Notes under the pieces: model-generated
The model's input: the letters and a program-made list of their open reading frames with translations, nothing else
What the model was told of the DNA's origin: nothing
The model's database searches: none
Shown here: piece after piece, positions 3,635 to 62,039 of the stretch
Numbering within the stretch: the stretch's first letter is position 1
Layout: each line of letters starts with the position of its first letter
Assembly: GCA_016935315.1 (NCBI GenBank)
Contig: JAFGRD010000149.1
Span: forward strand, 62,001-126,000
Reading direction: 5' to 3'
Length of the DNA: 64,000 nucleotides
Source of the DNA: Pirellulales bacterium
GTDB taxonomy: Bacteria; Planctomycetota; Planctomycetia; Pirellulales; Thermoguttaceae
Translations under genes and position numbers: made by a program

Positions 3635-3790
3635 GCGTCCATTTCTGTCCTAGAATATCAGTAGGCAGGCAAGGAGGGTGCGTGCCACTGTGGGGGTACA
3701 TGAAATGACCCACGTGGGCCATCTTTCCGGTTATGCATGTCCCCCATACAGGCAGATTTCCCGGATCGAACCGACGCTGACCACCACACC

Positions 3791-4375
3791 ATGCCCGAAC
3801 AAGAACTGCCCCCTAACGAAGATCTGGCAACCTCGGAAGACCTGACGCCGGCCGCGCGTGGTTCCTGGCTGGCCAAGGTCAAGATCTTGTCCTTCGTGAC
3901 CGTCGTAATCGCGGTTGAATGTGTGGCGGCTTATCTGTATCTTCCCACGGCAGCGGATACGGCCGCCCTGGCCGAAGCCACATTGGGCACCACGCCGACC
4001 ATCGAGAAGCCTCCCGAGGAGGCCGAGAAACCCAAAGAGGAGCAAGAACTGGCCGACCAGGTTGAGGTAGATCTGGGGGAGTTTAGTGTTACCGCTTTTC
4101 AGCCCGTCTCAAACACGACGCTCCGGATCGATTTCCACCTCTACGGGACTGTCGGTGCCGAGGACGAGCAGACATTCCTTGCCTTGATGAACGAGAACCT
4201 CCATCGGTTCCGGGAGCAGGTTATCGTCACCGTGCGCAGTGCCGACATCACCGATCTGACTGATGCAGGGCTGGGTTTGGTCAAACGCAAGATTCTCGAG
4301 AAAACCAACCGAATCATGGGCAAGCCCCTCCTGCGAGTGGTGATTTTCAGCGACTTCTCGTTCATCGAGCAATAG
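3791..4375 (+). CDS. fliL: Flagellar basal body-associated protein FliL
   Basis: About 194 residues with a charged cytoplasmic N terminus, one membrane helix (about residues 31-50 from this start, ILSFVTVVIAVECVAAYLYL), an acidic linker rich in Glu/Lys and Pro, and a C-terminal FliL domain ending in RVVIFSDFSFIEQ. FliL surrounds and stabilises MotAB stators. An in-frame ATG at 3737 would add 18 residues; the ATG at 3791 gives a more usual short cytoplasmic tail, but neither start has a strong ribosome site, so the start is uncertain. The gap to motB (3635-3790) is C/G-rich with a cccacgtggg palindrome near 3709. Confidence 0.85.
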   Translation: MPEQELPPNEDLATSEDLTPAARGSWLAKVKILSFVTVVIAVECVAAYLYLPTAADTAALAEATLGTTPTIEKPPEEAEKPKEEQELADQVEVDLGEFSVTAFQPVSNTTLRIDFHLYGTVGAEDEQTFLALMNENLHRFREQVIVTVRSADITDLTDAGLGLVKRKILEKTNRIMGKPLLRVVIFSDFSFIEQ

Positions 4376-4403
4376 CCTACCGGCCAAGAAGGGACGGATT
4401 CCT

Positions 4404-5189
4404 ATGGCGGACGACAACCTGATGGATCAGAGTGAGATCGAACGGCTCCTGAGCCAGGCGGAGCAGAAAACCGCGCCGCAGAAGGAAGAGAAGTCGGAGG
4501 ACGCCGGCGTTCCGGCCGAAGCCCTGGCCCAAGAGGCCGTCGAGTCCTTGCTGGGCGAGAAGCGAGGTGGCGACGAGTCCGGGACGGCGGAAGCCGTGGC
4601 GGCACCGCCCGAGAAGTCCACGCAGCCCAAGGCGGCGGCAACGCCGAGCAGCGACGACGACAAGCTGCTGGCACAAGATGACATCGAAAAGCTGCTCAAT
4701 CAGAGCGGGGCAGGCGCACCGAAGCCGTCTCAACCTCAACCCCCGGCGGCTCCCAGGGAAGTGGCGCAGCCTCAACTTGCTGGAGAAGGCGCCGTGCCGC
4801 AAGGTGACATTGAATACCTGTTGAATCAGGCTGAACAGGCTCTGGAGTCGATCAGCGCAGCGACCGAGGCGGACTTGCCGCAAGGTGTCGCGGCATTTCG
4901 CCTGGAGGACTTTAGCGGCACGCCGGCCTCAGCCGAGAACGCGACGCTCGATCTGATCCGCGACGTCGAGTTGGACTTGAAGATCGAACTGGGACGCACC
5001 CACATGTACTTGGAGGATGTCCTGAAACTCCGCAAAGGGTCGGTCGTCCCGCTCGATAAGTTGGCTGGCGATCCCGTGGATATCTACGTCAACGGACGTC
5101 TGATCGCCCGGGGCGAAGTGCTGGTGCTCAACGACAATTTCTGTGTGCGTGTGGCCGAACTGATCGCCGGGACCAACGTGTTTGCCTAA
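4404..5189 (+). CDS. fliN: Flagellar motor switch protein FliN with a long multi-motif N terminus
   Basis: A 261-residue protein. The C-terminal ~80 residues (about 181-261, LDLIRDVELDLKIELGRT to LIAGTNVFA) are a standard FliN/SpoA domain of the cytoplasmic switch ring. The first 180 residues are an extension not found in E. coli FliN (about 137 aa in all). It is low in complexity but contains four spaced copies of one short motif: MDQSEIERLLSQ (7-18), LAQEAVESLLGE (41-52), LAQDDIEKLLNQ (89-100) and VPQGDIEYLLNQ (131-142). These match the LSQxEIDxLL motif at the N terminus of FliM and FliY that binds phosphorylated CheY. No fliM lies between fliL and this gene. The switch role is clear; CheY binding by these motifs is inference. 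Confidence 0.9.
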   Translation: MADDNLMDQSEIERLLSQAEQKTAPQKEEKSEDAGVPAEALAQEAVESLLGEKRGGDESGTAEAVAAPPEKSTQPKAAATPSSDDDKLLAQDDIEKLLNQSGAGAPKPSQPQPPAAPREVAQPQLAGEGAVPQGDIEYLLNQAEQALESISAATEADLPQGVAAFRLEDFSGTPASAENATLDLIRDVELDLKIELGRTHMYLEDVLKLRKGSVVPLDKLAGDPVDIYVNGRLIARGEVLVLNDNFCVRVAELIAGTNVFA

Positions 5190-7212: not shown

Positions 7213-7393
7213 CGAGGCATTCTGGGTCTTGGGTGGGCCCCACTTGCCGGCCGCGGCTTCGTGAGTCCGACGGCACGTGTCGCTCGTCGGCGGCAAGAGA
7301 CCCGCTCATCAGCCCTCAGGTATTCCCAGTCCCCCAATGCCCAATTCCCAACCGCTTGTCCCGAGTTTCAAGTCCCCTGTCCCCGGATTCACC

Positions 7394-7663
7394 ATGGATC
7401 CCGACGTCGCCATCGAGCTTGGCCGCAAGGCCCTCCTGACCGCATTGATGATCGGATCCCCCGTCTTGCTGGCCGGACTGATCGTGGGCCTGCTGATCGG
7501 GCTGTTCCAGGCGTTGACGCAGATCCAAGAGCAGACCGTGGCCTTCGTTCCGAAAATCGTGGCCATGGTTCTGGCCTTGGGCCTCACGTTGCCCTGGCTG
7601 ATCGCGCGGATGCTGGAATACTCGACCGACCTGATTTCGAGCATCCCCGCAAGGTTCTATTGA
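7394..7663 (+). CDS. fliQ: Flagellar export gate protein FliQ
   Basis: An 89-residue protein with two membrane helices, the normal FliQ length and plan (MDPDVAIELGRKALLTALM, then GLLIGLFQALTQIQEQTVAF and a second helix). Longer in-frame starts upstream (from 7277) run through C-rich spacer sequence and would add a tail not seen in the family. The final Tyr codon and TGA stop are part of a 104-bp dispersed repeat that starts at 7657. The spacers to fliP (181 nt) and fliR (241 nt) are unusually wide for this trio, which is often tightly packed. Confidence 0.93.
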   Translation: MDPDVAIELGRKALLTALMIGSPVLLAGLIVGLLIGLFQALTQIQEQTVAFVPKIVAMVLALGLTLPWLIARMLEYSTDLISSIPARFY

Positions 7664-7760
7664 CGCTTGCACACTCAATGTACGAGGGGGACCCACGGGA
7701 GCCCGACGTCTCCGGTCTCCCGTTGGTCGGCCTGGATCATTCGCAATGTGAACATCAATA
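7657..7760 (+). repeat. Dispersed 104-bp repeat, copy A (3' end of fliQ)
   Basis: This stretch aligns without gaps to 17397-17500, with about 12 differences in 104 positions. The first 24 bases (ctattgacgcttgcacactc and on to aatg) are identical in both copies and include the last Tyr codon and the stop of the preceding gene. A hairpin lies inside: arms 7690-7701 and 7717-7728, 12 bp with one mismatch. A third, weaker copy is at 13922-14025. It behaves like a small intergenic palindromic element, and its mode of spread is unknown. Confidence 0.85.
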
Positions 7761-16148: not shown

Positions 16149-16197
16149 AGAGGGCGCGTTTTTCCTTGAGTTTCCTCAACCCCCGTTGAAACGAGCC

Positions 16198-17403
16198 ATG
16201 GAAGTCAGAACCTATCGCGCGAGCACGATGCACGAAGCGTTGGCGATGGTGCGGCACGAGCTGGGACCGGACGCCGCCGTGTTGCACACGCGGGAAGTGC
16301 ACACCCGACGGCTGTTCGGTTGGGTCCAAGGCCCGCGGCAGATCGAGGTTACCGCATCCGCCGGAGTGAACGTTCCCAGCCGCCTGCCGCCGGGCAACGG
16401 CAATCGATTCGCGCCGGCCCCGGCCAGTCCTCCGCCCCGTCCCGGGAGGTCTCCGGCGACGGTCACACCCGCGCCGGACCATCTACCGCAAGTGGGCACG
16501 GAGTTGCCCGGGGAGATGCAGGGGCAATTAAGCGACCTGCAATCCATGGTGCGAGAACTCTGCCGACGTTCCAAGGGCGACCAACGCCGCGATCTTCCGG
16601 AGGAGCTGTTCCGGTTATTTGCCGACTTGCTCGACTGCGAGTTGAGCGAGGAGGTGGCCAGGGGGCTGGTCGAACGGATCCGCAACGAGGCCTCCGGGGC
16701 CGAACTGGCCGATCCGGTCCTTACCAGGGCGAGGATCGCCCGAATGATCGAGGCCGAGATCCATGTGGCCGGCCCCATTGCACTCACTCCCGGCCAGCGA
16801 CGGCTGGTGGCGCTCGTCGGGCCGACCGGCGTGGGCAAGACAACGACGATTGCCAAGCTGGCAGCCAATTATCACCTGAGAGAGAGACGCCGGGTCGGGC
16901 TGATCACCGTCGACACCTATCGCATTGCTGCCGTCGAGCAACTCCGCACCTACGCCGATATCATCGACCTGCCCATGCAGGTGGTCTCCACGCCTCGGGA
17001 AATGCGTGAAGCGGTGCAACAGATGGGCAACCTGGACCTGGTGCTGATGGACACGGCCGGACGCAGCCCCAAGGATGAAGTCAAAATCCAGGAGCTCAGG
17101 GCATTCTTGACCGAGGCCGGTGCCGACGAAATCCATCTTGTGCTCAGCAGCGTGGCCGGCGAGCGGGCACTGGCGCAAACAGCCGACCGCTTTGCGACGG
17201 TCGGCACCACGGCCCTGCTGCTGACTAAGCTCGACGAGGCCACCGGACTGGGCAACATCCTGCCGGTGCTGCGCTCGAGCAGGCTGCCACTGAGCTACCT
17301 GACCAACGGACAGAACGTTCCCGACGATATCGAAACGGCCGACGCCCGACGTCTGGCCAGGTTGATCCTCGACGTACCCACCTCTTCGGAGGACGACTAT
17401 TGA
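16198..17403 (+). CDS. flhF: Signal-recognition-particle-like GTPase FlhF
   Basis: A 401-residue GTPase that places the flagellum, usually at the pole. It begins MEVRTYRASTMHEALAMVRH, the FlhF N terminus, has a Pro-rich linker (about residues 65-100) and an SRP-type NG domain. The P-loop GPTGVGKTTT is at about residues 208-217, followed by the conserved DTYRIAAVEQLRTYADI and DTAGRSPKD motifs. The next gene is its regulator FlhG. The last Tyr codon and TGA stop come from the 104-bp repeat that begins at 17397. A TTG start at 16186 would add four residues; the ATG at 16198 fits the family better. Confidence 0.94.
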   Translation: MEVRTYRASTMHEALAMVRHELGPDAAVLHTREVHTRRLFGWVQGPRQIEVTASAGVNVPSRLPPGNGNRFAPAPASPPPRPGRSPATVTPAPDHLPQVGTELPGEMQGQLSDLQSMVRELCRRSKGDQRRDLPEELFRLFADLLDCELSEEVARGLVERIRNEASGAELADPVLTRARIARMIEAEIHVAGPIALTPGQRRLVALVGPTGVGKTTTIAKLAANYHLRERRRVGLITVDTYRIAAVEQLRTYADIIDLPMQVVSTPREMREAVQQMGNLDLVLMDTAGRSPKDEVKIQELRAFLTEAGADEIHLVLSSVAGERALAQTADRFATVGTTALLLTKLDEATGLGNILPVLRSSRLPLSYLTNGQNVPDDIETADARRLARLILDVPTSSEDDY

Positions 17404-17500
17404 CGCTTGCACACTCAATGCGCGAGGGCGACCAACGGGAACCCGACTTGTCCGGCCTCCCGTTGGTCGGCCTGGATCATTCACAATACAAACATCAATA
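17397..17500 (+). repeat. Dispersed 104-bp repeat, copy B (3' end of flhF)
   Basis: Ungapped match to 7657-7760 (about 88% identical). As there, the repeat starts with ctattga, so that its TAT and TGA are the last sense codon and the stop of the gene before it. The inner hairpin is perfect here: arms cgaccaacggga (17429-17440) and tcccgttggtcg (17458-17469) with a 17-nt loop. No T-run follows, so it is not a classical terminator. Confidence 0.87.
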
Positions 17501-17577
17501 AGCACTCCAATCCTTCGGCGAAACAATCCGGGGCCAGGTTCCTCGGGGAATACTCGCACCTGAGCCTTGATCAAACC

Positions 17578-18450
17578 ATGCGCGACCAGGCCAACGATCT
17601 GCGGCAACTTGTCAAGGCGTGTGCCGTGGAAGAGCCACTTCGAGACGGAACTCAGCCAACGCTGGTCATGCTGACTGGGGCCAAGGGAGGTGTCGGCACA
17701 ACCACAATCGCCGTCAATCTGGCCATTGCCGCCGAGCGGAAGGGCCTGCGGACCGTGCTTGTCGATGCGGATGAAGACGGTGGAGACGTCGCCCTACTCT
17801 GTGGGCTGGAGGAACGCTACACCATCGCCGATGTGCTTTCGGGAAGGCGAACAGTCCGCGAGGTCCTGCAGCCCGGTCCCGGTGGTATCCGGGTGCTTTC
17901 GGGAATCTGGGGATTGGAACGGCTTTCCGACTTCACGCCTGCCGCCGGGAAACGTCTTCTCGATCAGTTGCAGGGAGCGGGCCAGGAAACCGACTTGGCC
18001 GTACTGGACGTGGGAGACAACCCCAGCCGCGTCGTCCAACCGTTCTGGCGGGCTGCGAGGCTGATCCTCGTGGTTACTCTACCCGACGTGCCGGCCGTAA
18101 TCGACGCCTACGCAACCGTCAAGAAGCTGGTCGTCAACGAGAAGGCGGAGCCGATCCGCTCGCTGATAAACCGATGTCCCGACGAAGGAATCGCAGAAAA
18201 CGCACACGGCCGCCTCGCCCAGGCCTGCCGGCGTTTTCTCGCTTTGGACCTCCCGATGGCCGAATACATCAGCGATGCGTCTCGGGCCGTTGCGGTGGAC
18301 CACCTGTTCGCGATGACCGCCCCCAAGTGCCGCGCGGCGCGGCACATTGACCGGCTGATCACCATGATTGCAGCCTCGCGTCCCAAGGCCGGGTCCCAAT
18401 CGACGTCGGCAGGACGAGTCCCGCCACGGCAGATGCGGATGACTGCATGA
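17578..18450 (+). CDS. flhG: MinD-like ATPase FlhG (FleN/YlxH), flagellar number regulator
   Basis: A 290-residue ParA/MinD-family ATPase. The start MRDQANDLRQLVK contains the DQAxxLR motif with which FlhG stimulates the FlhF GTPase, which fixes the start at 17578; an open frame reaches back to 17407 but runs through the 104-bp repeat. The deviant Walker A GAKGGVGTTT is at about residues 34-43 and VLVDADEDGGDVALLCGLEE follows. The FlhF-FlhG pair sets number and position of flagella; together with fliA downstream this order is typical of polar flagellates. The last ~30 residues are basic and not conserved. Confidence 0.9.
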   Translation: MRDQANDLRQLVKACAVEEPLRDGTQPTLVMLTGAKGGVGTTTIAVNLAIAAERKGLRTVLVDADEDGGDVALLCGLEERYTIADVLSGRRTVREVLQPGPGGIRVLSGIWGLERLSDFTPAAGKRLLDQLQGAGQETDLAVLDVGDNPSRVVQPFWRAARLILVVTLPDVPAVIDAYATVKKLVVNEKAEPIRSLINRCPDEGIAENAHGRLAQACRRFLALDLPMAEYISDASRAVAVDHLFAMTAPKCRAARHIDRLITMIAASRPKAGSQSTSAGRVPPRQMRMTA

Positions 18451-61970: not shown

Positions 61971-62039
61971 GGCGGTTCCTCCAGATTCCAACGTTGGCCG
62001 GGGAATCGCCCCGGTCCATCCGCCGAACCGGCCGACGAC

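Follow-up and report, generated by a model that had tools for sequence, protein, structure and literature searches.

A tandem array of FliM-type motifs on the N-terminal arm of a planctomycete FliN, predicted to dock CheY-P and varying in size with chemotaxis genes

The fliN locus and its genomic surroundings

The window, that is the whole stretch of 64,000 nucleotides analysed here (positions 62,001 to 126,000 of the forward strand of contig JAFGRD010000149.1, assembly GCA_016935315.1, from a Pirellulales bacterium of the Thermoguttaceae), contains a flagellar cluster in which ORFs adjacent to fliN show MotA, MotB, FliO, FliP, FliQ-, FliR-, FlhB- and FlhA-type families (Table 1). PF01052 is the sole Pfam family recognised in the 261-residue product of fliN, and the PDB chains closest to its domain (4yxb, 1o6a, 1yab and 8umd) carry the names FliN or FliM-FliN, 1yab being named a chemotaxis protein. 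Because only PF01052 was matched and a Pfam scan at E<=1 yielded no CheC family, and hence no CheC/CheX-type middle domain, the protein is identified as FliN, and an identity as FliY was ruled out.

Table 1. Features of the fliN region and of the flhF/flhG-like genes; positions refer to the window.
Feature	Position	Strand	Description	Basis
fliN CDS	4404-5189	+	261 aa: disordered N-terminus with motif array, then C-terminal SpoA/FliMN_C domain	ORF, Pfam
Motif 1	4422-4457	+	residues 7-18, MDQSEIERLLSQ	sequence; AF2 helix 9-22
Motif 2	4524-4559	+	residues 41-52, LAQEAVESLLGE, least canonical	sequence; AF2 helix 43-54
Motif 3	4668-4703	+	residues 89-100, LAQDDIEKLLNQ	sequence; AF2 helix 91-100
Motif 4 and longer helix	4794-4859	+	residues 131-152, VPQGDIEYLLNQAEQALESISA, juxta-domain element	AF2 helix 133-152
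FliN C-terminal domain (SpoA, FliMN_C)	4953-5165	+	residues 184-254	PF01052, E 1.1e-24
flhF	16186-17403	+	SRP-type GTPase	PF00448, E 1.5e-43; named by GTPase family and place
flhG-like gene	17407-18450	+	MinD/ParA ATPase	PF01656, E 1.1e-9; position after flhF

In other bacteria, fliM often sits between fliL and fliN. Here, fliN lies directly 3' of an ORF named fliL by its place and by reading (3737-5189 for both), in which no Pfam match to the FliL family was obtained, and fliM is found on another contig, following a gene of the aldehyde dehydrogenase family that reads like proA.

Further features of the window lie outside the motor genes proper. The first 35 to 50 or so codons of the flhG-like ORF (17407-17556) match at least 34 other places in the genome (35 of 431 candidates scored) and, judged by these matches, belong to a repeat family scattered over the genome; flhG itself probably begins downstream of the repeat. 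Similar repeat stretches can be seen by eye around 7300-7760 and towards the 3' part of flhF. Moreover, a single ORF of 7622 codons (28569-51437), in which many repeated units can be read, probably encodes a giant surface protein.

Elsewhere in the genome, CheW, CheR, CheA and CheD are encoded in one cluster, together with two receiver-only proteins. The first of these receivers (minus strand, L404:7638-8000) aligns over nearly its full length to solved chemotaxis CheYs, among them 4hns from Vibrio cholerae (E 4.2e-33), with which it has the stretches DWNMP and VKPFTAxTLxEKL in common, and the sequence of 1f4v (E 7.3e-30), a structure that holds a FliM peptide. The latter entry is CheY of E. 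coli (excerpt of PMC5677366).

Four motifs on the N-terminal arm of FliN

The pattern xxQxx(I/V)ExLL occurs four times ahead of the FliN domain, at residues 7-16 (MDQSEIERLL), 41-50 (LAQEAVESLL), 89-98 (LAQDDIEKLL) and 131-140 (VPQGDIEYLL), with starts at 4422, 4524, 4668 and 4794 of the window; an earlier note on this DNA had given their coordinates and residue ranges correctly. An origin of the four motifs as chance matches was rejected by shuffling, since 20,000 permutations of the 155-residue N-terminus gave a mean of 0.0048 matches and at most one, compared with the four observed. Recent DNA duplication was likewise rejected, the codons differing among the copies and the linkers looking unrelated by reading. 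Measured against the consensus LSQxEIDxLL, motifs 1 and 3 are close and motif 4 is a partial match, while motif 2 departs from it by A for E and V for I.

An AlphaFold2 model based on 65 unaltered sequences places helices that coincide with the four motifs, separated by linkers that are mostly disordered (pLDDT <50). As the overall confidence of the model is low (mean pLDDT 64, pTM 0.30), only the helix positions are used here. The four motifs are not equivalent: in the model, motif 4 belongs to a 20-residue helix (133-152) beside the FliN domain. In an alignment of 18 FliN sequences, comprising that of the window and 17 others hand-picked for diversity, after viewing, from the 30 best full-length matches, E13 and L15 of motif 1 are invariant and Q9, I12 and L16 are conserved at 90% or more, while the helix of motif 4 displays an invariant pattern of its own (D135, L139, A143, A146, S149). 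By reading of the alignment, motif 3 is common among relatives, and of all the motifs it is motif 2 whose position varies most. Sequence identities of 0.70 for motifs, 0.41 for linkers and 0.76 for the domain were obtained exclusively from sequences selected for at least two motifs, so that the motif value is inflated and is not relied on. Across the genome, a degenerate DNA pattern that misses variants, including FliN motifs 1, 2 and 4, gave six matches, of which FliN (in motif 3) and FliM each hold one, the remaining four lying in frames that by reading are unlike motor proteins.

Distribution of the array among relatives

Matches to FliN were obtained in 49 of 60 related genomes, 194 of 296 genomes of the same order and 222 of 392 genomes of the phylum; some of the weaker matches are probably to FliM or another SpoA-domain protein. 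Among the 80 named public loci that the FliN alignment found, the usual labels are Pirellulales, Planctomycetaceae, Thermoguttaceae or simply Planctomycetota, and from these labels we infer that the order of the surveyed genomes is Pirellulales. The N-termini of 154 FliN proteins were read, 145 from the 194 matching genomes of the order (E of about 5e-26 or better, one genome, G452, being left out; 49 of the 194 were dropped) and nine from the related set. Because the 18 aligned sequences had been hand-picked after viewing, a count over all 154 is the fairer one.

For this count, an array motif was defined as a strict match to the pattern, excluding the motif that adjoins the FliN domain. At least one array motif is present in 106 of the 154 proteins and at least two in 79, with a maximum of five. 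Within the last 190 residues before the domain, the 154 N-termini hold 246 matches, motif 4 included, compared with a mean of 0.3 and a maximum of three in 200 shuffles and none in the reversed sequences. Counts were taken over the open frame, so that a few residues ahead of the start codon may enter; contig ends truncate some N-termini (G450 and G478 among them), and one (G011) may hold a frameshift. The idea of four conserved motifs is borne out in part: arrays of two or more recur in 79 of 154 proteins and motif 1 is near-invariant in the 18 aligned, but the number of copies varies from zero to five.

The survey was confined to the phylum. Among 19 FliN proteins from elsewhere in it (L148-L166), one has a strict match; those of a sister order (L155, L157, L159, L162 and L166) bear LLDPSEIEKLL-type repeats, two or three per protein, in which P or N replaces Q, so that they escape the strict pattern. 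Two members of genus g9, with five (L301) and four (L297) array motifs, have some of the longest arrays in the survey, and the FlhF matches in their genomes are comparatively weak (E 3e-50 and 2e-54, respectively). Family f16 often lacks arrays, and in genomes such as L383-L387, L396 and L397 FliN is without any array although CheW is present.

Array size and chemotaxis genes

Gene content constitutes the strongest evidence on the function of the array. If the array docks CheY-P, it is expected to be lost together with chemotaxis. As a marker of chemotaxis, PF01584 was used, which represents CheW but also finds CheA and is present in 213 of the 296 genomes of the order. Since absence of CheW from metagenome assemblies can reflect incompleteness, results at a completeness of at least 90% are given as well. 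The mean number of array motifs is 1.60 in CheW-positive (n=121) versus 0.55 in CheW-negative genomes (n=33), and 1.49 (n=96) versus 0.36 (n=25) at >=90% completeness.

This association was examined with relatedness taken into account in several ways. Permutation within families at >=90% completeness gave p=0.0002, the lowest value that 5000 permutations can yield; within genera, which leave little contrast, p was 0.05, and it rose to 0.16 when the completeness filter was dropped. The closest independent pairs of CheW-positive and CheW-negative genomes on a tree of the FliN domain favoured the CheW-positive member in 13 cases and disfavoured it in one, with six ties (p=0.0009, >=90% completeness), the corresponding numbers without the filter being 14, three and nine (p=0.006). 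PGLS with a fitted lambda of 0.55 assigned one additional motif (+1.0) to the presence of CheW (p=2e-7, >=90% completeness), while with lambda fixed at 1 on the FliN-domain tree no effect was detected (p=0.85 for all genomes, 0.76 at >=90% completeness), unless family f16 was removed (p=0.014). The pairs are weighted above PGLS because the tree represents one short domain with near-identical tips.

Chemotaxis does not require the array, given that 26 of 96 CheW-positive genomes at >=90% completeness are devoid of array motifs, 19 of these 26 belonging to family f16. Some FliN proteins of CheW-negative genomes retain what appears to be a decayed motif 1 (e.g. IAQDKADELT in G532 and TGQDKVEELA in G565), and a similar decay is seen in a CheW-positive genome (G572). 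Taken over the genomes compared, absence of chemotaxis genes tends to go with a shorter array or none at all, a pattern suggesting that the motif copies serve to catch CheY at the motor.

Motif 4 and the FliM motif

Motif 4 behaves differently from the array. Outside families f16 and f19, it is found in 22 of 24 CheW-negative and 75 of 85 CheW-positive genomes, and in its full form across all families in 24 of 33 and 93 of 121, respectively; it does not track chemotaxis. Because it is kept without chemotaxis, three motifs rather than four are supported as candidate CheY sites, and motif 4 is probably a separate juxta-domain helix with a structural or assembly role. The proposal of the earlier note that the repeated FliN motifs bind CheY is hence supported in part, for motifs 1 to 3, the size of whose array tracks CheW in independent lineages, but not for motif 4.

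The FliM of the genome, encoded on another contig, possesses one motif of its own (DVLSQTEVESLL / DVLSQTEVESLLNAM), which rules out that the array replaces a lost FliM motif. In a sample of FliM proteins deliberately enriched for CheW-negative and f16 genomes (loci L031-L061 and L345-L402) and scored with a pattern that allows P for Q, the motif is present in 27 of 29 CheW-negative and 50 of 59 CheW-positive genomes, and all 11 misses fall in family f16, where FliM motif variants such as LSQNQVExLL and LSRNDVESLL occur. Since the FliM motif is kept without chemotaxis, a motif sequence alone does not prove a CheY partner, and this retention suggests a chemotaxis-independent role of the EIDAL-type motif of FliM, perhaps in contact with FlhG.

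Proposed function of the array and its alternatives

The reading we favour, and regard as fairly probable, is that motifs 1 to 3 are CheY-P docks that form an antenna array on the flexible arm of FliN, motif 4 standing apart. The array would consist of short helices that belong to the FliM/FliY class of docking motif, and motifs 1 to 3 most likely dock CheY-P, as the motif of FliM does in other bacteria. The likely ligand would be the CheY that the genome encodes, which is of the chemotaxis type by the receiver alignments. In the Salmonella ring, FliM and FliN are present in a ratio of 34:102 (excerpt of PMC11087270). At this stoichiometry, which amounts to about three FliN for each FliM, roughly 300 sites (about 306) for loose docking of CheY-P would be added around the ring if every FliN bears three array motifs. 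The arrays may thereby act as an antenna or buffer, concentrating CheY-P at the ring and raising its local level, before CheY-P is handed to the switching site on FliM; switching itself would proceed via FliM and FliG, and not through the arrays. For the present organism, we infer CheY-P binding, the ring stoichiometry and the antenna role alike. A point against docking on FliN arrays comes from the CheY-bound Salmonella ring, in which 34 copies of an activated mutant CheY are seated on the outer face, on FliM, and bind its middle and N-terminal parts with contacts to FliG (excerpt of PMC11528121).

A further-reaching version, which we hold only tentatively, would make FliN, instead of FliM, the main chemotactic receptor of the motor in this order, with a flexible cloud of about 300 sites whose number evolution tunes along with chemotaxis, and would leave the FliM motif to a chemotaxis-independent partner such as FlhG. 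If true, two jobs that one motif class performs elsewhere would here be split between two ring proteins.

That the array itself binds FlhG instead of CheY, and so loads FlhG or times C-ring assembly, appears unlikely. Which switch protein FlhG binds differs between species: contacts are published for FliY in B. subtilis and for the FliM N-terminus in polar flagellates (excerpt of PMC12826062). These contacts speak for such a role, as does the presence of flhF and the flhG-like gene in the same window. Here flhF was taken to mark the FlhF/FlhG system. Of 31 CheW-negative genomes of the order whose FliN was read, 27 have FlhF, so that loss of the array occurs without loss of the FlhF system: the mean number of array motifs is 0.56 in these 27 genomes versus 1.61 in 103 genomes positive for both CheW and FlhF. 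Conversely, among 11 CheW-positive genomes in which FlhF was not detected, five have arrays of two or three motifs (three in G031, for example). At >=90% completeness, an array is found in only one of six such genomes, which makes a link between array and FlhF possible, though four of the six belong to f16, a family often arrayless anyway. Moreover, the FliM motif, being kept without chemotaxis, suits FlhG better. Taken together, these counts, which include few CheW-positive genomes without FlhF, suggest that the array follows chemotaxis better than it follows FlhF, while the FliM motif and motif 4 do not follow chemotaxis.

Slightly less likely still is that the motifs are elements of FliN assembly or export, contacting FliM, FliH or other FliN copies and merely resembling EIDAL. 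Such a role fits motif 4 well, contiguous with the domain and conserved regardless of chemotaxis as it is. Motifs 1 to 3, on the contrary, vary in number and spacing, which argues against a structural contact, since that should be fixed, and they become fewer without chemotaxis while FliM and FlhF stay.

We give little credence to an indirect correlation, in which FliN tails would shrink along with relaxed or altered motility and the motifs would lack a specific binding partner. The N-terminus, its length being taken over the open frame and thus including some residues ahead of the start, is weakly shorter without CheW (p=0.04), and the null result of PGLS at lambda 1 in the full set points the same way. 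Motif counts, however, respond far more strongly than length, the juxta-domain motif is spared, and motif 1 is near-invariant among the 18 aligned FliN proteins. Least probable of all is a general platform for other CheY-like or c-di-GMP-responsive (Cle-like) receivers, for although Cle proteins of Caulobacter use the CheY site of FliM (excerpt of PMC5677366) and the che cluster here includes two receiver-only proteins, the link with CheW/CheA points to the chemotaxis branch.

To our knowledge, the relation between the number of docking sites and the sensitivity and range of the switch has been studied mainly in rings with one motif per FliM. With zero to five sites per FliN within one order, following the chemotaxis genes, the arrays provide a natural series that could test antenna, buffer and cooperativity models of the switch. 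In addition, docking of CheY and docking of FlhG, both ascribed to one motif class, may be told apart through the different behaviour of the motifs on FliN and FliM.

Comparison with known switch proteins

The published CheY-binding consensus LSQxEIDxLL is located on FliM (excerpt of PMC5677366), and the EIDAL-type motif is well known on FliM and FliY (excerpts of PMC9126983 and PMC5677366). The N-terminal motif of FliM resembles the array in its residue pattern, in forming a short helix within a disordered N-terminus and in residing on a protein of the switch ring, but it is present in at most one copy on the FliM proteins examined, whereas the FliN described here bears three to four, in addition to that of FliM. 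FliY of B. subtilis and T. maritima is a SpoA-domain switch protein with an N-terminal EIDAL motif (excerpts of PMC12826062 and PMC9126983), and in this combination of SpoA domain and EIDAL-type motif it is like the present FliN; it differs by a CheC-like phosphatase domain, which Pfam did not find in this FliN.

On FliN itself, no report of tandem motif arrays was found in the open-access literature on such arrays or on planctomycete switch proteins. In E. coli, a hydrophobic patch of FliN serves as second CheY site (cited in PMC7355467 and PMC11087270, both excerpted), which likewise involves FliN in the reception of CheY, but through a surface of the domain and not through an N-terminal linear motif. 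In a study of 12 bacteria, EIDAL motifs, whether full or degenerate, were noted as sporadic features of FliN as well as of FliY (excerpt of PMC6946799). The motif is thus placed on FliN there as well, while here it forms an array of variable size that occurs in many genomes of one order and tracks CheW. Motif and protein are both known; new are their arrangement and a copy number that follows chemotaxis.
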